DNA from: an uncultured Spirochaetaceae bacterium
GTDB taxonomy: Bacteria > Spirochaetota > Spirochaetia > Sphaerochaetales > Sphaerochaetaceae
Direction: 5' to 3'
NCBI GenBank assembly: GCA_944389065.1
Contig: CALXKZ010000008.1
Location: 1-64,000, forward strand
Length of the DNA: 64,000 nt
Shown: positions 53,620 to 64,000 of the stretch, one piece after another
How the letters are laid out: each line of letters opens with the position of its first letter
How positions within the stretch are numbered: position 1 is the stretch's first letter
The notes under the pieces: model-generated
Told to the model about the DNA's origin: nothing
Seen by the model: only the letters and a program-made list of their open reading frames with translations
The model's database searches: none
Made by a program: the position numbers and the translations under genes

Positions 53620-55083
53620 TCAGCCTGTGATCATTTTATTGAACTCTGTGATAAGCTCATCGATGCGCTTTGTCATCTTCGGAAGGGCTGTCCAGTAGTT
53701 CCTGTCATACCATTGCCTATTGAGCTCTTCGTAGGTCTTGCCCTGCTGTTCAACCCATGTGTAATACTTCAGGTTATGGATTCTCAGCCTGTCATAGTAT
53801 CCAAGCTCAAGGGCATTATCGATTCCCTGATGCATGAGGCTCGATGCATGGACCTTCGCGGCTTCAGTCTCTGTGAATGCACCCTGCTGATCCGTAAGCT
53901 CTCCAAGCCTTGATGTGTACATCGAGGAGCTGTCTGTGAGGATGGTGAATACGACATCGTCCTCCTCAAGCTCATAGTATTTTGCCATCTTGATAGCCCC
54001 AAGAAGGTTTCCTATGCCGGAGATTCCGAATAGCTGGAGGTTCGCGATATCGCCATCGCTGATACCGATTGATGAAAGATACTGCTTTCCTGTCTCCTCG
54101 TTGAAGAGCCTGTAGATATCCATGCAGTCCTGATCATCGATTGAAAGAACCATATCGGTATTGCGGACGTTATGGATCCATGGAACATGCTTGTCTCCGA
54201 TACCTTCGATTCTGTGGGCACCGAAACCGTTTCTGAGAAGAGTAGGGCACTGGAGGGCTTCACCTGCACCGATCTTGATATTCGGATATCTTGCCTTGAG
54301 GTGATCTCCAGCAGCGAGCGTTCCTCCGGATCCTGTGGAAGAGACATAGCCTTTGACATTATCTCTCTTTACACCAAGCTCCTTAAGAACCTCGAGGATT
54401 GCAGATCCTGTCACTTCATAGTGCCAGAGATAGTTCTCGAACTGCTCGAACTGATTGAAGATGACGATATGCGCACCTCTTTCCTCATCAAGCTCATGGC
54501 ACTTGTCGAAGATTTCCTTGACATTTGATTCGCATCCCGGTGTAGCGATGATCTCCCCCGCGACAGTCTTGAGCCAGTTGAATCTCTCCTGGGACATGTC
54601 TTCCGGAAGGATCGCTATTGATTTGCATCCGAGAAGCGCGCTGTTGTATGCGCCTCCTCTGCAGTAGTTGCCCGTTGACGGCCATACTGCCTGCTGCTCA
54701 ACAGCATCGAAGTTCCCTGTCACAAGAGCTGGCGCAAGACAGGCATATGTTGCACCTACCTTATGCACTCCGCATGGGAACCACTTTCCGGCAAGAGCCA
54801 GGATCCTGGCCTTCGTTCCTGTGATTTCCCTAGGAATCTCAATGAAGTTGACTTTGCCATATCCACCGCCGAATTCCTTGGGCTCATTATGCCAGTTGAT
54901 GCGGTAGAGGTTCAGAGGATTGACATCCCAGAGCCCCACGCTGCTGAGTTTCTGTTTGATATCATCCGGGATAAGCGCCGGATTCTTCATCTGGGCGAAT
55001 GTGGGCAGTGTTATTCCCTTCTCACGGCATCTTGCAGCATTGCTCTGCGCTATCTTGTTTTTCTTCCTGAGATTGATAAGCAT
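53620..55083 (-). CDS. Fold-type II PLP enzyme, cysteine-synthase-like family
   Basis: A 487-residue PLP enzyme. A Lys in FPCGVHKVGATYACL takes the Schiff-base position, and the phosphate loop is SSTGSGGTLAAGDHL. STGNYCRGGAYNSALLGCKS resembles the substrate loop of cysteine synthases, and GISGIGNLLGAIKMAKYYEL follows. It has unusual N- and C-terminal extensions (about 80 residues at each end) relative to cysteine synthase. The reaction is unknown; amino-acid beta-elimination or replacement is likely. It is not the diaminopropionate ammonia-lyase of the purine gene set, judging by motifs. A TTTACA-16-TATAAT promoter and AAGGAG precede it. Confidence 0.82.
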   Translation of the reverse strand: MLINLRKKNKIAQSNAARCREKGITLPTFAQMKNPALIPDDIKQKLSSVGLWDVNPLNLYRINWHNEPKEFGGGYGKVNFIEIPREITGTKARILALAGKWFPCGVHKVGATYACLAPALVTGNFDAVEQQAVWPSTGNYCRGGAYNSALLGCKSIAILPEDMSQERFNWLKTVAGEIIATPGCESNVKEIFDKCHELDEERGAHIVIFNQFEQFENYLWHYEVTGSAILEVLKELGVKRDNVKGYVSSTGSGGTLAAGDHLKARYPNIKIGAGEALQCPTLLRNGFGAHRIEGIGDKHVPWIHNVRNTDMVLSIDDQDCMDIYRLFNEETGKQYLSSIGISDGDIANLQLFGISGIGNLLGAIKMAKYYELEEDDVVFTILTDSSSMYTSRLGELTDQQGAFTETEAAKVHASSLMHQGIDNALELGYYDRLRIHNLKYYTWVEQQGKTYEELNRQWYDRNYWTALPKMTKRIDELITEFNKMITG

Positions 55084-56150: not shown

Positions 56151-56170
56151 TTGTTGCATTTTGTTGCGAA
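56151..56170. promoter_or_regulatory. Paired 10-bp direct repeat upstream of ygfK
   Basis: TTGTTGCATT followed directly by TTGTTGCGAA, ending five bases before the -35 of the ygfK promoter. The same paired element occurs at 63593-63612 upstream of the xdh gene. Confidence 0.5.
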
Positions 56171-56175
56171 ATTTA

Positions 56176-56203
56176 TTGACAGTGGTTCGGGGTGGTTTAG
56201 AAT
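56176..56203 (+). promoter_or_regulatory. ygfK operon promoter
   Basis: TTGACA (56176-56181), 16 bp and TAGAAT (56198-56203), then AGGAG (56215-56219) five bases before the ATG at 56225. Confidence 0.65.
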
Positions 56204-56224
56204 CATAATCAGATAGGAGTGTTT

Positions 56225-59200
56225 ATGGCGGATTGCATGAGGCCTGTTCCTTTTCAGGAACTACTTGAAAGAATAGCGGGAGAATACAGGAACCATGGTT
56301 CTGTATTCGGTATCGATAACAGTCTTTTCTATGAGGATAAGGGAAAGAAGAGAATGAAGATTCTCTCCTCTTCCTGCACAATGCCGTTAGGGCCTGCCGC
56401 CGGTCCTCATACGCAGCTTGCCCAGAATATTGTAGCTTCCTATCTTTCCGGAGCAAGGTTCATCGAGCTCAAGACTGTGCAGATAAATGACAGGCTTGAG
56501 ATAGCAAAGCCCTGCATCGATGCCCGTGATGAGGTCTATAATGCGGAGTGGTCCACGGAGTTCACGCTGGAAAAGGCATATGATGAGTATCTGAAGGCGT
56601 GGATCATACTTCATATAATTGAAGCTTGCATGAACGGAAAGTTCCCTGAGGAGCCTTCGTTTCTCTTCAATATGTCCGTCGGATATGATCTGAAAGGCAT
56701 AAAAGAAGAGAGAATGCAGATCTTCATAGACAATATGATTGAATGCAATAAGGATTCTTTCGATGATTATATTGCACAGGCTGCAGCAGCTCTTGAGGAT
56801 AATCTCTTTGAGGGAACAGACTGGGAAGGGCCTGCTCTGAAAGCAGCATCCCAGCTCGATGCTATATCGAAGAAGATTGCATCATCCGCAACTATTTCCA
56901 CAATGCATGGCTGCCCCCCGGATGAGATAGAGGCAATCTGCTCATATATGATCGAGACGAAGCATATCGATACATTCGTCAAGCTCAATCCAACGCTTCT
57001 TGGCTATGATAAGGTCCGTTCGATCCTGGATAGCTATGGATACTCCAATGTCGGCCTGAGGTGTGAATCCTTTGAGCACGATCTTCAGAAAGAGGATGCT
57101 TTCCCTATGCTTGAGCGGCTGGAGAAGAAAGCCGGATCTGCTGGAGTGGGCTTTGGTGTGAAGCTTACCAATACTCTTGCGTCCATAAGCGACGGCCGTG
57201 TGCTTCCTGGAAATGAGAAGTATATGTCCGGCAAAGCTCTTTTCCCTGTATCACTGGAAGTAGCGAGGCAGATTGCGGAGCATTTTGATGGACGGCTTCC
57301 TGTATCATTCTCTGGTGGTGTATCTGTTCTCAATGCTTCCATTCTCTTTGAAGCAGGTATCCATCCTATAACCCTTGCCAGTGATATGCTCCGTCCTGGC
57401 GGTTATCCGAGAATGCGCCAGATTGCTATTTCCTTTATGGATTCTGATGGCTGGACGAAGAATCTTGTGAATCCATCTGCATTGGTTTCAGCAGAGAAGA
57501 GAGCCGAGGAATCGGGTACATTCAGAAGGGCGAAGACAAGAGGCGAGAGCGTTAAGATCGGCACGCCGCTTCCGCTTACAGACTGCTTTGTGGCTCCTTG
57601 TGTGGAGGCCTGCCCGATACATCAGGATATTCCGGACTACATCGCTCTTGCAGGAGAAGGACGCTGGGCAGAGGCTCTTGGCCTGATATACCTGAAGAAT
57701 GCTCTTCCGAATATAACGGGGTGGATATGTGACCATCAATGCCAGAACCACTGCACGAGAATGGATTATGAAGGCCCAGTCGCAATCAGGGAAGTGAAGC
57801 GGCTTGCTGCTGAGAAAGGAAGGACGGAGTTTCTATCTGAGATCTGGGAAAAACCTGAGGAGCCCGCTGATGTGAAGGCGGCTGTCATAGGAGCCGGACC
57901 TGCAGGTCTTGCTGCTGCTTATTTCCTTGCAAGAGCAGGCTTTGATACATATCTTTATGAAAAAGATTCATGTGCAGGAGGTGTTGTCAGAAGCACTATT
58001 CCGGAGTTCAGGATCCCAGAGAAGGCTATCGATGATGATGTTGAGTTCATAAAGGAATGCGGCGTTGATTTCCATTTCTCTGAATCTGTCACTGTCAGCG
58101 ATCTCAGGAAGGCGGGCTTTGAGTATATCTTCATAGCTATCGGAGCTGAGAAGGAGAAATCCATGGATCTTCCAGGCAACGGGCCATCGGAAGGTGCTGT
58201 GGCATTCCTCAGAAGATGCAAGAGCGGTGAGAGCATCAATATCGGGGAGCATGTTGTTGTAGTCGGCGGAGGCAATACCGCCATGGATGCATCGCGCATG
58301 GCGAAGCGTATTCCAGGCGTGAAGGATGTCATCGTTGTCTATAGACGCTCTGAGGAGGAGATGCCTGCTGATGCAGAAGAGTATGAGGAGGCTCTCGGTG
58401 AGGGCATTGTATTTGAATTCCTCCATAATCCGGTATCGTTCCAGGATGGAGTTCTGGAACTGGCTGTGATGGAGTTGGGTGAAGAGGATGCTTCCGGGCG
58501 CCGACGTCCTGTCGATACCGGAAAGAGAGAGAGCATAAAAGCTGATTATATCATCTACGCAATCGGCGAAGCGGTCGACAAGACTGTTCTTGAAGATCTT
58601 GGTGCGGATTCTGCGACAGAGGATGATGGAATATTCATAATAGGAGATGCCGTCACAGGTCCTTCTACGGTCGTACGCTGTATCTCTTCTGCACGCGCTG
58701 CGGTCGACAAGGCAATCGACGCGGTCTATGATGCTCTTGCTGCTGAAGATGACGATGAGGAAGAGTGTACCTGCGGTCACCATCACGAGCATGGAGAAGA
58801 ATGCACCTGCGGTCACCATCATGATGAGGAAGATGATGATGAGGATGGGCTTTCGGAGAAGGAAGAGGCTGAGCTGAGAGAGGCAGAGGATAATTTCTTC
58901 CTGAATATCATCTCAAAGAAGAGCCATCTTGTTCCTCCAGGAGTCAATGGAGATGAGTTCTTCGCACTTTCTGAGGCGTCCCGCTGTGTTGAGTGTTCCT
59001 ATCTCTGTCTGAAGTGTGTTGAAGTCTGTCCGAACAGAGCCAATGTGGCTATCGATATGAGGGAGACCGGGCTTTTCGAGGATCCATTCCAGGTCGTGCA
59101 TCTTGATGCATACTGCAATGAATGCGGCAATTGCGCAACATTCTGTCCCCATTCAGGAAGGCCCTACAGGGATAAGCTCACGATATTCTCGCTCCGTGAG

Positions 59201-59395
59201 GATTTCGATGAAAGCGATGCAAGCGGATTCTATGCAGAGGGGGATACTGTCCTCATAAGGCTTGCTGGCAGCGTTCAGGAAGGGCGTATAGGAAGAGATG
59301 GCAATCTGGAGGCTGATGTTCCTGAGGAGATTGCGGCAATCATCGAGAAGATTTACCTGTCCTATTCATATCTGTTGGGACCTGTGGAGGAGTAA
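56225..59395 (+). CDS. ygfK: YgfK, putative selenate reductase-type flavo-iron-sulfur oxidoreductase
   Basis: About 1056 residues in three blocks. Residues 1-420 form a dihydroorotate dehydrogenase-like flavin barrel. From about 458 a glutamate-synthase-small-subunit-like block begins with PCVEACPIHQDIPDY and DHQCQNHCTRM, then the FAD motif VIGAGPAGLAAAYFLARAG (about 554) and NAD motif VVGGGNTAMDASRMAKR. A His/Cys/acidic insert with two CTCGHHH units follows (residues 846-870). The C-terminus has ferredoxin clusters (SYLCLKCVEVCPNRAN, CNECGNCATFCPHSG). YgfK is a marker of selenium-dependent molybdenum hydroxylase and gut purine-degradation clusters; its exact reaction is not settled. The overlap with ssnA shows one operon. 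Confidence 0.94.
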   Translation: MADCMRPVPFQELLERIAGEYRNHGSVFGIDNSLFYEDKGKKRMKILSSSCTMPLGPAAGPHTQLAQNIVASYLSGARFIELKTVQINDRLEIAKPCIDARDEVYNAEWSTEFTLEKAYDEYLKAWIILHIIEACMNGKFPEEPSFLFNMSVGYDLKGIKEERMQIFIDNMIECNKDSFDDYIAQAAAALEDNLFEGTDWEGPALKAASQLDAISKKIASSATISTMHGCPPDEIEAICSYMIETKHIDTFVKLNPTLLGYDKVRSILDSYGYSNVGLRCESFEHDLQKEDAFPMLERLEKKAGSAGVGFGVKLTNTLASISDGRVLPGNEKYMSGKALFPVSLEVARQIAEHFDGRLPVSFSGGVSVLNASILFEAGIHPITLASDMLRPGGYPRMRQIAISFMDSDGWTKNLVNPSALVSAEKRAEESGTFRRAKTRGESVKIGTPLPLTDCFVAPCVEACPIHQDIPDYIALAGEGRWAEALGLIYLKNALPNITGWICDHQCQNHCTRMDYEGPVAIREVKRLAAEKGRTEFLSEIWEKPEEPADVKAAVIGAGPAGLAAAYFLARAGFDTYLYEKDSCAGGVVRSTIPEFRIPEKAIDDDVEFIKECGVDFHFSESVTVSDLRKAGFEYIFIAIGAEKEKSMDLPGNGPSEGAVAFLRRCKSGESINIGEHVVVVGGGNTAMDASRMAKRIPGVKDVIVVYRRSEEEMPADAEEYEEALGEGIVFEFLHNPVSFQDGVLELAVMELGEEDASGRRRPVDTGKRESIKADYIIYAIGEAVDKTVLEDLGADSATEDDGIFIIGDAVTGPSTVVRCISSARAAVDKAIDAVYDALAAEDDDEEECTCGHHHEHGEECTCGHHHDEEDDDEDGLSEKEEAELREAEDNFFLNIISKKSHLVPPGVNGDEFFALSEASRCVECSYLCLKCVEVCPNRANVAIDMRETGLFEDPFQVVHLDAYCNECGNCATFCPHSGRPYRDKLTIFSLREDFDESDASGFYAEGDTVLIRLAGSVQEGRIGRDGNLEADVPEEIAAIIEKIYLSYSYLLGPVEE
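58760..58831 (+). repeat. Tandem 36-bp repeat within ygfK encoding CTCGHHH units
   Basis: Two 36-bp units (58760-58795 and 58796-58831) differ at few positions. Each encodes an acidic start, CTCGHHH and an acidic or His tail. The two Cys and three His per unit suggest metal binding. Confidence 0.75.
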
Positions 59396-60741
59396 TGGCA
59401 GATATAATCATCAGAAATGCAATGATAATGCAGACGGAGCCCCCGTTTGAGATAACAGAATGTGCTGATATCGTGATTGAAGGATCGATGATCACTGCAG
59501 CAGGGAAAGGAGCTGCTGCAGGGATTTCCGCACCTAAGGAGATTGACGGGACTGGACGGATCGTGATCCCTGGCAATGTCTGTGCCCATCATCATTACTA
59601 CTCCGGTCTTTCCAGGGGAATGCTTATATCCTCTGGTCCGCAGACTGACTTCATACAGGTTCTTAAGGAGTGGTGGTGGAGGCTTGACAGAGCTCTGGAC
59701 GAAGAGGCTGTATATTATTCCTCACTTATATGCTCGCTCGATGCGATTGCTGCTGGAACGACTACGTGCATCGATCATCATGCTTCTCCTTCGTTTATCG
59801 GGAATTCCCTTTCAGTGATAGCCAAAGGCATGGAGGATGCAGGGGTGCGTGGCGCAACCTGCTTTGAGATCACTGACAGGAACCGGGGAATGGATGAGAT
59901 CCGCGAAGGGTATGAAGAGAATGTCAGGTTTGCATCGGAAGTGGATGGAAGGAAGGCCCGGGGTGAGAATGTCCTTGTAGAGGCAATGATAGGAGGTCAT
60001 GCACCTTTCACAATCCCTGATGAAGGACTTGCTCTGATGGCGGATGCAGTGAAGTCGACAGGGCGTGGAATGCATCTTCATGTGGCTGAGGATAAATATG
60101 ATCAGGTGTGGTCTCACCATTTCCATGGCGATGATATCATCAAGAGGCTTGATAGATTCTCTCTCCTTGATGAGAAGACGCTTCTTGTGCATGGGGTACA
60201 CCTTTCATCTGAGGAAATCTCTCTCCTGAATGACCGAGGCTGCTTCCTTGCCCATAATGCCCGTTCGAATATGAATAACAATATCGGGTACAACCATCAT
60301 GTGCCTGATGTGAAAAAGCTCGTGATCGGCACCGATGGCTGCGGAGGAGACATGTTTGAGGAACTCAAGCTTGCTTTCTTCAAGCATAAGGATGAGGGAG
60401 GTCCGTTCTGGCCGTCGGATTTCGTTGCAGCTCTCAACCGTGGCAACAGGCTTGTCGAGTCTGTCTTCAATAATGGGTCGAGATGGGGCAAGGTCGAGAA
60501 AGGGTATAAAGCTGATATCGCTATACTTTCATACAATGCTCCGACTCCTGTGGTAAGTGCAAATGCCGCTACGCATTTTGTATGGGGCATGTCATCAGGC
60601 AATGTCGAGAGCACGATAATCGATGGGAAGCTTCTGTATGAGAACAGAAGGTTCACAGCAATCGATGCTGACAGAATCTATAAAGAGGCTCAGTGCGTTG
60701 CAAAGCGTGTCTGGGAGAGAACAGATAGAATAAAAGCATAA
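59395..60741 (+). CDS. ssnA: SsnA-type amidohydrolase
   Basis: A 448-residue TIM-barrel aminohydrolase. Metal-binding positions are visible as NVCAHHHYYSG (around residues 65-67), MHLHVAEDKYD, LVHGVHLSSEE and TDGCGGDMF with the Asp. SsnA is placed with ygfK and ygeY in purine clusters and probably deaminates or hydrolyses a ring nitrogen compound. Its start codon shares the last base of the ygfK stop (TAATG), with GGAGGAG inside the ygfK end as ribosome binding site, showing tight coupling. Confidence 0.94.
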   Translation: MADIIIRNAMIMQTEPPFEITECADIVIEGSMITAAGKGAAAGISAPKEIDGTGRIVIPGNVCAHHHYYSGLSRGMLISSGPQTDFIQVLKEWWWRLDRALDEEAVYYSSLICSLDAIAAGTTTCIDHHASPSFIGNSLSVIAKGMEDAGVRGATCFEITDRNRGMDEIREGYEENVRFASEVDGRKARGENVLVEAMIGGHAPFTIPDEGLALMADAVKSTGRGMHLHVAEDKYDQVWSHHFHGDDIIKRLDRFSLLDEKTLLVHGVHLSSEEISLLNDRGCFLAHNARSNMNNNIGYNHHVPDVKKLVIGTDGCGGDMFEELKLAFFKHKDEGGPFWPSDFVAALNRGNRLVESVFNNGSRWGKVEKGYKADIAILSYNAPTPVVSANAATHFVWGMSSGNVESTIIDGKLLYENRRFTAIDADRIYKEAQCVAKRVWERTDRIKA

Positions 60742-60753
60742 GGAGAGTGCTAT

Positions 60754-61977
60754 ATGGTTTCCGAAAGGATCAAAGAACTTGCTGAGAAGTACAGGGATTA
60801 CACTGCAGAGAATCTCTCAAAGCTTGTGAAGACAAAGAGCTACAGCTCCAAGGAGGAGGATGTATGCCGTCTCATCGTGAAGCTCTGCGAGGAGGCAGGA
60901 TTCGATGAGGCAAAGATAGAAGGACTTGGATCCGTTGTTGCCCGTGTTGGCAATGGGCCAAAGACTCTTGCCTTTGATGCTCATATCGATACAGTCGAGG
61001 TTGGAAATCTCAAGAACTGGGATTTCGATCCATTCTCAGGTGCTATCGAGGATGGATTAGTGAAGGGAAGGGGAGCTTCTGACCAGAAGGGAGGAGCTGC
61101 TTCCATGATTACTGCAGGCCGTATCCTCAAGGAGCTTGGATATGGTGGTGAGTACACCATCCTCTTTACATTCACTGTAATGGAGGAAGACTGTGACGGA
61201 ATGTGCTGGAAGTACATGATCGAGGAAGAGAAGATCAAGCCCGATCTTATCGTCTCCACTGAGCCTACAAGCTGCCGTCTTTACAGAGGACATAGAGGAA
61301 GAATGGAAATCCGCGTGATCCTCCGCGGTATCTCCTGCCACGGCTCTGCACCAGAGCGCGGGGTATCAGCAGCATATAAAGCCGCTCGTGCAGCTCTTGC
61401 GATTGAGCAGCTGAACAAGGATCTTCAGCCTGATGATGACAACTTCCTTGGAAAGGGAACGATCACGGTCTCCCAGATGGATGTAAAGGGTCCTTCACAG
61501 TGTGCTGTTCCTGATTATGCCATGCTTTACTGCGACCGCCGCCTTACATGGGGAGAGGATGCAGAGCTTGCGATGAATCAGGTCAGGGAGTACATATCGA
61601 AGGCAACCGGGGATAAGCCAGAGGACATAATCGTCGAAATGCCTGATTACGATAAAGTTGCCTGGACCGGTACAAAATACTCTCAGGAGCTTTATTTCCC
61701 GACATGGAAGCTTAATAAGGATCACCCGCTTGTTCAGGCAGGAATCAGGGACTATCAGGAGATGTTCGGCAAGGATCCTGTTGTTGATAAGTGGACATTC
61801 TCCACAAACCTTGTCGCCACAACGGGAAGGCATAAGATTCCTGCAATCGGCTTCGGCCCAGGAGATGAGGCTCAGGCACATGCCCCGAATGAGATCAACA
61901 GGGTAGAGGATCTCGTGATCTGCTCCAAATTCTATGCAATGCTCCCATATGCATTGGAGGGAAAGGAGAAGGACTGA
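60754..61977 (+). CDS. ygeY: YgeY-family M20 hydrolase
   Basis: A 407-residue M20-family deacylase or deacetylase. Zinc ligands appear as AFDAHIDTVEVG, GRGASDQKGG and FTVMEEDCDGM, and the dimerisation lid includes SCHGSAPERGVSAAY and later GFGPGDEAQAHAPNE with the last His. NCBI names this YgeY a selenium metabolism-linked hydrolase. In the purine-degradation gene set it acts on a ring-opened intermediate. AGGAGAG precedes the ATG. It follows ssnA by 12 bases and ends the operon at a hairpin. Confidence 0.94.
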   Translation: MVSERIKELAEKYRDYTAENLSKLVKTKSYSSKEEDVCRLIVKLCEEAGFDEAKIEGLGSVVARVGNGPKTLAFDAHIDTVEVGNLKNWDFDPFSGAIEDGLVKGRGASDQKGGAASMITAGRILKELGYGGEYTILFTFTVMEEDCDGMCWKYMIEEEKIKPDLIVSTEPTSCRLYRGHRGRMEIRVILRGISCHGSAPERGVSAAYKAARAALAIEQLNKDLQPDDDNFLGKGTITVSQMDVKGPSQCAVPDYAMLYCDRRLTWGEDAELAMNQVREYISKATGDKPEDIIVEMPDYDKVAWTGTKYSQELYFPTWKLNKDHPLVQAGIRDYQEMFGKDPVVDKWTFSTNLVATTGRHKIPAIGFGPGDEAQAHAPNEINRVEDLVICSKFYAMLPYALEGKEKD

Positions 61978-62008
61978 TCATCTGATTGGTTCAATCAATC
62001 GTATGATG

Positions 62009-62030
62009 CCGGGACTGGTTTCAGTCCCGG
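62009..62030. terminator. Hairpin at the end of the ygfK-ygeY operon
   Basis: CCGGGACT, GGTTTC and AGTCCCGG form a perfect 8-bp stem but no T-run follows. It overlaps the 3' end of the convergent nucleotidyltransferase gene. Confidence 0.6.
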
Positions 62031-62854
62031 TTGCTGACTATGAGCATGTGAAGCTTCTCTATGAGCTTTGCGGCTGCAGGAACAAGACTGTCCGTTCCGA
62101 TTGCATTCACCGCGTTGCAGATATCTTCCTCCATACCGGATGGAATGGATCTGCACAGCGCCGATGCATATGGAATAAGCCGCTTTTCTCCCGGATGGTA
62201 GACTCGATTGTATGCGAATAGCACATCGAAGTACGATGCAAGAATCGAAGACATTCTGTGGTTCTGGCTGACTATATCGCTACGCTTTGCTGCAAGTTCA
62301 AGCTGATGTATGAACGGAGAGCTGTAATCACCATCGATGACAGCAAGATTCTTTCTAATTATGTTCCTTCTCAGCTCTTCCGGGTATGGGCCTGATACCT
62401 CTTCTTTGATCCTCTCAAACCATCCTGAAGCGGAGCTGATGATCCTGGAATGAGTGATGTTATAGAGAATGCATGTTGTGTATCCAATACGCGCATTGCA
62501 TTTCCTGTATACATCATCGACCTGCCATTCAGTCCACTCCTTGGATCTGAACATTATGTCATAGATGTTTCCATAGGTATCTTCCGCCTCATCGCTCTCC
62601 TCAAAAAACGTCATGCCGACAACAGATGGTAAAGAAAGAGCTGAGTAGATATCCTTTCTTGCCTTTCTGTCGATTGGTGCTGATGAATATACATAGATAT
62701 CCCAGTCAGAGGCCTGATCATCCAGTATGCCAGAGCGTGAACCAGATAGAACAGCAGCCTCAGCTCCGATATTGAGGAATGAAGAGGCGAGTGTGTCCAG
62801 AATCGGTATCTCAAGGAGATCCCTGCAATCAGTTCTGTGGCTTATCCCAGGCAA
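62021..62854 (-). CDS. Nucleotidyltransferase-fold protein with DUF4037-like C-terminus
   Basis: About 277 residues. VLSGSRSGILDDQASDWDIY is the G-S-x-10-D-x-D motif of the nucleotidyltransferase superfamily (metal Asps in SDWDIY). The C-terminal two thirds are helical, as in DUF4037 proteins. Its substrate is unknown; tRNA- or antibiotic-type nucleotidylation is possible but not shown. A TTG at 62854 with AGGAAGG five bases ahead is the best start; an ATG at 62893 lacks a ribosome binding site. It overlaps the upstream small gene by 26 bases, so they are coupled. Confidence 0.8.
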   Translation of the reverse strand: MPGISHRTDCRDLLEIPILDTLASSFLNIGAEAAVLSGSRSGILDDQASDWDIYVYSSAPIDRKARKDIYSALSLPSVVGMTFFEESDEAEDTYGNIYDIMFRSKEWTEWQVDDVYRKCNARIGYTTCILYNITHSRIISSASGWFERIKEEVSGPYPEELRRNIIRKNLAVIDGDYSSPFIHQLELAAKRSDIVSQNHRMSSILASYFDVLFAYNRVYHPGEKRLIPYASALCRSIPSGMEEDICNAVNAIGTDSLVPAAAKLIEKLHMLIVSNRD

Positions 62855-63089
62855 GATTGCCTTCCTTGTCTGTGTATGTATAGGCAATCGCATAGTAGAT
62901 GATCGGATCCTTTTCCTTCCATCTCCTGTACGCTGCAGACACAGCAGATGCCATGCCTCGGTTGTTCACATAGTCCTTTCCCTTATCGAGCATGATTGCT
63001 CTCAGGGATCCTAGCGATATCTGTATCTTCTTGGAGTACAGTGCTATCGCAAGCTCGCCGATGAAGTCATAGATTTCGTCGTTTGTCAT
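62829..63089 (-). CDS. Small protein paired with the nucleotidyltransferase gene
   Basis: An 86-residue cytosolic protein I do not recognise. Motifs are MTNDEIYDFIGELAIALY, SLGSLRAIMLDKGKDYVN and AVSAAYRRWKEKDPIIYYAI. It looks like a small helical protein with a DNA- or RNA-binding style basic middle. Overlap with the next gene indicates a two-gene unit. A weak GATGAGAG precedes its ATG. Confidence 0.75.
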   Translation of the reverse strand: MTNDEIYDFIGELAIALYSKKIQISLGSLRAIMLDKGKDYVNNRGMASAVSAAYRRWKEKDPIIYYAIAYTYTDKEGNLAWDKPQN

Positions 63090-63414
63090 TTTTCTCTCAT
63101 CCTATGATTGAAATCGTAACAGCAGCATGTGGATAAAGCAAGGAAATAGGATGATTCCAACGTTGTTTCCATTATCTATCAGTGGATCAGATCTGCATGT
63201 ATCCGGGATATGTTTTCCTGTTTTCCATATCAAGACCACAATGCCTGAATTCTGGATATTCTTTTCCAGTCTGAGGAATCCTGATAGGCTTATCAAAGAA
63301 TAATCCTATGTAAGATATCGGCAGATATTCTGATGGATAGCATGCAGTCTGCGACGAGCGGTAAAACAAGCGCAAAACTGAATCAGGATCTGATGAAAGG
63401 TCAGAGGCTGTAAA
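63090..63414. other. Gene-poor stretch upstream of the xdh region
   Basis: No gene is convincing here. Short frames on both strands (for example a minus-strand frame at 63187-63375 with FDKPIRIPQTGKEYPEF) lack a ribosome binding site or clear family match. The stretch probably holds remnants of genes lost beside the purine cluster. Confidence 0.35.
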
Positions 63415-63576
63415 ATGAGGTCTGGCTTGCGTGGTGATTCAGGCTCTTCAGAGATTGCAGAATATTCAGGGCTGAGTCCTCAGCACACAAGAACATTGCT
63501 GAAGAGAATGTGCGATCTGGAGATGATATCCTCTTATGGAAATGATAAGACAAGGAGATATCGTCTTGAGAAATGA
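63415..63576 (+). CDS. Short winged-helix protein or remnant of a longer regulator
   Basis: A 53-residue frame from ATG at 63415. SSEIAEYSGLSPQHTRTLLK followed by ISSYGNDKTRRYRLEK is a clear winged-helix segment as found at the C-terminus of Fic/RecG-like or MarR-like proteins. There is no ribosome binding site beyond weak bases, and an in-frame stop lies just upstream, so it may be the tail of a broken gene. If expressed it could be a small DNA-binding protein for the neighbouring xdh operon. Confidence 0.45.
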   Translation: MRSGLRGDSGSSEIAEYSGLSPQHTRTLLKRMCDLEMISSYGNDKTRRYRLEK

Positions 63577-63592
63577 TATCTGCACCTTAAGC

Positions 63593-63612
63593 TTGTTGCA
63601 ATTTGATGCATC
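63593..63612. promoter_or_regulatory. Paired 10-bp direct repeat upstream of the xdh gene
   Basis: TTGTTGCAAT followed directly by TTGATGCATC. It matches the ygfK element at 15 of the first 17 positions and lies upstream of a TATAAT at 63630-63635. Confidence 0.5.
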
Positions 63613-63629: not shown

Positions 63630-63635
63630 TATAAT
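63630..63635 (+). promoter_or_regulatory. -10 box of the xdh gene
   Basis: TATAAT, 72 bases before the ATG. No good -35 is spaced 16-18 bp ahead; the paired direct repeat overlaps that position, suggesting activator dependence. Confidence 0.5.
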
Positions 63636-63706
63636 CGTAAATGGAAGAGGAATAGCAGAAGCTAATTCCACATTATGCAAAGAAAAATATAATGGAAGGA
63701 GGATGT

Positions 63707-64000
63707 ATGCCTATAAATTGCATTGATGACAAAGTTGTCAGGGTCGATGCAGAGGCCAAGGCGAGGGGAGAGGCGATGTATGTCTCTGATTATTCCTTCC
63801 CTGATATGCTCTATGCCAGGATGATCCGTTCGGATATTCCACGAGGAACCATAGACAGCATATCGGTGCCCCAGCTTCCTGATGGATATTACTTCATTTC
63901 CGCAAAGGATATACCTGAAGGCGGGAAGAATGAGCTCTGGATGATTGCAAAGGACTGGAGATGCTTTGCAGATGGTGATGTAAGGTATGTCGGTGAGACC
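63707..64000 (+). CDS. Xanthine dehydrogenase-type molybdenum-binding large subunit, partial
   Basis: The first 98 codons of a gene that runs past the window end. The product begins MPINCIDDKVVRVDAEAKAR and continues GEAMYVSDYSFPDMLYARMI and SDIPRGTIDSI, which is the start of the aldehyde oxidase/xanthine dehydrogenase molybdopterin-binding domain (YxxD...LYA...RS). In the YgfK/SsnA/YgeY context it is probably the selenium-dependent xanthine dehydrogenase or XdhD. AAGGAGGATG precedes the ATG. Confidence 0.85.
   Translation, partial: MPINCIDDKVVRVDAEAKARGEAMYVSDYSFPDMLYARMIRSDIPRGTIDSISVPQLPDGYYFISAKDIPEGGKNELWMIAKDWRCFADGDVRYVGET

Follow-up and report, generated by a model that had tools for sequence, protein, structure and literature searches.

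Genes and repeats in the window

The anaerobic breakdown of urate by gut bacteria is relevant to gout, and its control has been described for E. coli and clostridia. The window analyzed here, a stretch of 64,000 nucleotides from an uncultured Spirochaetaceae bacterium, carries a paired repeat upstream of two of its purine genes. The source genome (2.3 Mb in 92 contigs, 87% complete) has named close relatives among uncultured Spirochaetaceae and Spirochaetales, Ornithospirochaeta, and Bullifex porci.

On the forward strand, ygfK (56225..59395) is the first gene of ygfK-ssnA-ygeY and was identified by the NCBIfam equivalog TIGR03315 (1196.6 bits, cut-off 835.3). Its ATG start at 56225 was picked by the ribosome-binding site, where the ORF caller had GTG at 56219. 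The genes ssnA (59395..60741, TIGR03314) and ygeY (60754..61977, TIGR03526/NF009555) follow on the same strand. The 5' part of a gene for a xanthine-dehydrogenase-type molybdenum subunit (xdh; 63707..64000, forward strand) runs past the window end; its top NCBIfam matches were XDH models, and the partial protein fell below the whole-protein cut-offs because the scan covered 466 aa only. Divergent from ygfK lies a gene for a PALP enzyme (53623-55083, reverse strand), cysteine-synthase-like with scores below cut-offs, which in relatives has its operator region in common with ygfK. The xdh leader (63660-63707) contains a small hairpin, CATTAT at 63671-63676 with ATAATG at 63689-63694, just 5' of the ribosome-binding site; the leader of this genome folded at -10.8 kcal/mol, and many relatives show a CATTAT...ATAATGG-like stretch in their xdh leaders. 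Rfam gave nothing above cut-offs at this leader, the best matches being snoRNA and HOTAIR models far below them.

The repeat was located as TTGTTGCATTTTGTTGC at 56151-56167 upstream of ygfK and as TTGTTGCAATTTGATGC at 63593-63609 upstream of xdh. The two copies agreed at 15/17 positions, as the first-pass annotation had reported, and its distances from the second unit to the -10 element were also reproduced: 37 bp for ygfK (from 56161 to TAGAAT at 56198) and 27 bp for xdh (from 63603 to TATAAT at 63630). It had described each copy as two head-to-tail 10-bp units; the 10-bp period stands, and the unit itself had to be redefined, the conserved unit being TGTTGCA, not TTGNTGCANT, and the conserved element TGTTGCANNNTGTTGCA.

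The predicted tandem operator of ygfK (56152..56168, forward strand) has TGTTGCA-like units at 56152 and 56162 with a period of 10 bp. The predicted promoter on the same strand consists of a -35 element TTGACA at 56176..56181, found by sequence and promoter scoring 8 bp past the second TGTTGC, and a -10 element TAGAAT at 56198..56203, with a spacer of 16. The predicted operator of xdh (63594..63610, forward strand) lies over the -35 position and is degenerate: TGTTGCA at 63594 is followed, again with a 10-bp period, by a second unit TGATGC (TGATGCA at 63604, one mismatch). Its predicted -10 element is TATAAT at 63630..63635 (forward strand), and no recognizable -35 was found for this promoter by inspection of the window sequence. 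The -10 elements throughout were chosen by our own scoring scheme, which gives predicted rather than mapped starts.

When the whole window was searched for TTGNTGCANTTTGNTGC with up to two mismatches, three matches were obtained versus 0.82 expected, and 6/100 shuffles also reached three, so that, taken by itself, the window gives weak evidence. With no mismatches allowed, only the ygfK and xdh sites were recovered.

Conservation of the repeat

A search of the source genome for TGTTGCNNNNTGTTGC with up to one mismatch yielded eight matches, four of them exact, versus none for the backwards control. The exact copies precede ygfK, ygeW, a carbamate kinase gene, and purE, and the xdh site is one of the four one-mismatch matches; 3/8 of these sites (C18:3045, C41:4200, and C90:29400) are not 5' of purine genes. 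Among 24 genomes of the genus, 87 exact sites were found versus 0 for the backwards control, with at least one in 21/24 genomes (our sum). Of 168 distinct exact sites, 14 fit no gene family. Neither of the two outcomes that the first-pass annotation had named as refuting its reading was obtained: exact copies were rare, with 4/4 in the source genome standing before purine genes, and the site is conserved before ygfK, as described next.

Loci with ygfK were gathered by protein similarity. The exact site was present within 250 bp upstream in 67/83 ygfK loci with distinct upstream DNA, and in 69/83 with up to one mismatch; loci without it included non-spirochaetes and distant spirochaetes. The site occurred in 0/218 control upstream regions from the same loci (ssnA 83, xdhD 41, ygeY 62, and PALP gene 32), and the exact site in 0/19650 shuffled upstreams. 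It preceded ygeW in 9/11 loci. For xdh, 10/37 loci had a site with up to one mismatch (exact in 4), the close relatives L044 and L100 among them, so that conservation is strong before ygfK and weaker before xdh. None of the carbamate kinase upstreams close to ygfK loci contained the site (0/4); these genes are probably other copies. The PALP gene divergent from ygfK had it in 13/40, because the intergenic region is common with ygfK. The information content was 1.61 bits per position inside the site, a value inflated by preselection at up to one mismatch, versus 0.12 just upstream, which is essentially random.

A chance likeness of two unrelated promoters would be compatible with the modest count in the window alone, yet conservation, rarity, and placement of the site all speak against it; for ygfK the 67/83 loci refute it, and we give it almost no weight. 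A palindromic reading (ATGNNNCAANTTGNNNCAT at ygeW) was also rejected, as it fits ygeW only and the direct repeat fits every family aligned. An RNA element was dropped in view of sites that occur in either orientation and at or 5' of promoters, and of the Rfam result at the xdh leader.

Genes preceded by the operator

In relatives, sites were found 5' of ygfK, ygeW, carbamate kinase, diaminopropionate ammonia-lyase (ygeX), ygeY, and xdh-type genes, and also of genes for guanine deaminase, adenine deaminase, purine permeases, and BMP-type lipoproteins and of carA; some of these names were given by eye, from the first residues of the protein. Assignments above NCBIfam cut-offs were obtained for ygfK, ssnA, ygeY, ygeW, carbamate kinase, ygeX, adenine deaminase, and purE; guanine deaminase and the partial xdh scored below. 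The target enzymes correspond to the reductive urate pathway known from E. coli, in which carbamate kinase (YqeA) and a carbamoyltransferase (YgeW) process ureido groups (excerpts of PMC12507026). Judged from these sequence comparisons, an operator serving a reductive urate and purine-breakdown regulon is almost certainly real.

Several further sites were observed. In the source genome, a purE operon (L130, C1:13180) carries the same operator, with purC-like and purF-like frames following purE (by eye); purE was found in 2/8 relatives examined (L351 and L352), both with a site at one mismatch. At C7:79584 of the source genome (L003), a divergent promoter region between carA and an oxidoreductase gene (ferredoxin-NADP-reductase-like, named by eye) has at least three TGTTGCA units with an 11-bp period. 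Two genomes of family f25 have an exact site 5' of a similar unnamed gene with the start M[KR]..A.AI.WD.E.VTPS (L314 1122 and L317 1081), and the regulon may therefore include a protein of unknown role. DUF1015-like genes in two genomes (L284 and L339) and a serC-like gene (L291, genome G290), named by eye, carry the site as well, a hint of a link to serine metabolism.

A candidate regulator

The candidate regulator gene encodes a wHTH-WYL/WCX-type protein and lies outside the window (G000:C52:3936-4895). It was picked because in two genomes (G017 and G002) its promoter has the site, 53 bp upstream of a 318-aa HTH gene, and both are counted within the 63 promoters described below. The orthologue was single-copy in 36/36 genus genomes. 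Across 297 genomes of the class, exact sites occurred in 52/53 genomes with the candidate (214 matches versus 5 for the control; our counts) and in 43/244 without it (59 matches, seven of them in G290, versus 33 for the control; our sums). Presence was defined as a match with E up to 1e-50, and G039 and G101, whose matches were weaker (E about 1e-31 and 1e-33), were placed in the group lacking the candidate. This co-occurrence is confounded by kinship, and the test of the candidate's own promoter therefore weighs more. In 63 distinct upstreams of the gene, the exact site was found in 3 and a site with up to one mismatch in 28 (shuffle mean 0.075); when 10- or 11-bp spacing was allowed, 38/63 had it (shuffle mean 0.05). 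The first-pass annotation had proposed an undescribed regulator of purine degradation, and this proposal is supported by the operator, the regulon, the difference in site occurrence between genomes with and without the candidate, and the sites in 28/63 of the candidate's promoters.

There were exceptions. The candidate promoter of the source genome has no site, the best match having four mismatches; a response-regulator-like frame lies downstream of the gene there. In families f3, f4, and f17, a promoter site is absent from most of the orthologues sampled, and G014, which has the candidate, lacks both an exact site anywhere and a site at ygfK. The candidate was not found in G290 despite its seven exact sites; 2/4 genomes of that genus, two sister genomes, have the gene.

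The site and regulon could instead be served by another DNA-binding protein of the same clade, with the WYL gene as a mere target. The site-free promoter in the source genome would suit such an arrangement, as would the TetR-type genes near a few sites (L157, L169, L181, and L189; named by eye). We consider it improbable since sites at the WYL gene promoter recur in many genera and orientations, the presence of the gene tracks the sites over five families, and it is the only regulator gene seen to recur beside them. From these genomic patterns, the WYL protein is very probably the binder of the site.

Pfam detected HTH_11 in 27/27 orthologues, placing a winged helix-turn-helix at the N-terminus, and WCX (PF25583) in 25/27 at E up to 0.01 (25.8 bits in the protein of the source genome, cut-off 23.9); no Pfam WYL match was listed in the orthologues scanned. 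The protein of the source genome matched HTH_PafC weakly (29.6 bits, cut-off 32). A structure model (27 orthologues) had a mean pLDDT of 75 and a pTM of 0.40, with strands at 154-216. Foldseek matched the model to DriD (8tp8, E 9.6e-13), to PafBC (9fnd, E 9.1e-11), and more weakly to BrxR/CapW (7t8l and 7tb5, E 3.2e-05). The DriD and PafBC matches had full-length coverage but a TM of about 0.2-0.27 and an rmsd near 20 A, so the likeness holds domain by domain only. Sequence matches in the PDB were confined to the WCX and HTH parts, that of DriD falling in the WCX part (E 2.4e-05). Based on the Pfam, fold, and PDB results, the protein was called WYL/WCX-type, with a putative WYL barrel. The helix plus first strand region was nearly invariant in the 27 orthologues, and the near-invariance of the recognition helix region, GVHRSTISRYV, is what would be expected if they shared one conserved operator. 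An Sm-2-like stretch, G191-R-L-R-H, was also conserved, with R192, R194, and H195 in 27/27.

Repression or activation

We propose that the repeats would be the operators of a single dedicated transcription factor over the reductive urate and purine-breakdown regulon, most likely the wHTH-WYL/WCX protein. A dimer would set one winged helix on each of the two TGTTGCA units, which share a face of the DNA, and would repress by covering the -35, the spacer, or the start region. A purine- or nucleotide-related signal at the WYL/WCX half may release the factor, which would also limit its own synthesis in many relatives. As a whole, this explanation by a dedicated WYL/WCX repressor is probable on balance, with some reserve; repression rather than activation, given that the regulator assignment holds, appears fairly likely.

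Repression is favored by the near-consensus -35 of ygfK, by repeats that overlap the -35 of other genes, and by sites that follow the -10 in relatives. The ygfK promoters had a -35 of TTGACA in 50/75 and TTGACT in 21/75 (71/75 together) and a spacer of 16 in 73/75; their site is immediately 5' of the -35, a position that it also takes at ygeW. For carbamate kinase, adeC, and guaD, the -35 is made up of or covered by the repeat; these sites overlap the core promoter or start, as do those at ygeX (L338), where the -10 TATAAT is 6 bp upstream of the site, and at candidate promoters (L241-L247), where the site is downstream of TATACT. A permease gene (L336) has its -10 TATAAT 5 bp upstream of the site, and at L334 TAGAAT is upstream of it.

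The same regulator might instead activate the same regulon through a contact with RNA polymerase made at the tandem site, as DriD and PafBC would, and repress its own gene only. The first-pass annotation had judged the factor probably an activator; the missing -35 of the xdh promoter and the 10-bp shift between the two promoters, which it had pointed out, are both real. That missing -35 counts against repression, as do the nearest folds, DriD and PafBC, which are activators and to which the weak HTH_PafC match may be added. Distances from the site center to the -10 also cluster near 16, 26-30, 37-41, and 47-48 over families, and SiwR and PafBC act from -26 (excerpts of PMC10693628), near the position of the carbamate kinase sites. 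The near-consensus -35 of ygfK does not favor activation, being unlike that of DriD promoters, which match the -35 at 1-2 of 6 positions and keep a fixed site-to-(-10) distance (excerpts of PMC12340889); nor do sites that lie past the -10, as at ygeX and the permease gene in relatives. The same-face rule received weak support (p about 0.003-0.006, 14 gene families, period 10.5), which faded to p 0.05-0.11 at the same period once families whose -35 sits in the repeat were removed, and a strict helical-phase law was dropped on these weak statistics. Activation is thus the rather unlikely sign, and we retain the dedicated repressor.

A simple catabolic repressor leaves the site before purE, a synthesis gene, unexplained. 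It is possible, if somewhat doubtful, that the WYL regulator senses a purine or nucleotide metabolite via the Sm-like domain and sets purine and carbamoyl phosphate flow through its tandem operators; its targets would be ygfK, xdh, ygeW, carbamate kinase, and carA, with purE synthesis genes in one clade too.

Comparison with known regulators

WYL regulators have been described chiefly in DNA-damage responses and phage defence, and a dedicated purine regulator, if true, would extend the family to metabolic control with a tandem-repeat operator. No prior account of this operator or regulator for the purine regulon was found in the open-licence literature, and the pair is new as far as that literature shows. 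What results is a 17-bp operator of defined sequence together with a list of targets and a single candidate protein, all of which can be tested in a cultured relative.

In E. coli, UacR (YgeV) is a sigma-54 activator that controls the homologous urate cluster. To our knowledge, it is not sequence-related to the candidate regulator. DioR of Clostridiales, a sigma-54 activator and enhancer-binding protein, controls ygeW-ygfK-ssnA-ygeY, pbuX, and xdhC-linked genes according to excerpts of PMC6615313; this gene set is under its control in a different phylum, whereas the promoters here look sigma-70-type (TTGACA/TAGAAT) and a WYL-type protein is the candidate regulator. BrxR/CapW are, as proposed for the candidate, WYL repressors that bind near their own genes, but they control phage defence and are the weaker fold match. 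PafBC and SiwR of actinobacteria are likewise WYL regulators, PafBC with a fold match; both differ as ssDNA-sensing DNA-damage activators at -26 (excerpts of PMC6789036 and PMC10693628). DriD of Caulobacter (8tp8 and 9pfq), the best Foldseek match, has the wHTH-WYL-WCX layout predicted for the candidate; in excerpts of PMC12340889 it is a DNA-damage activator with a 20-bp pseudo-palindrome and a poor -35, whereas the element described here is a tandem direct repeat before purine genes. The poor -35 and fixed site-to-(-10) distance of the DriD/PafBC type contrast with the ygfK -35 elements and with distances of 16 to 57, also downstream of the -10, and in place of a palindrome, pseudo-palindrome, or single -26 site there is a tandem direct repeat with a period of 10.
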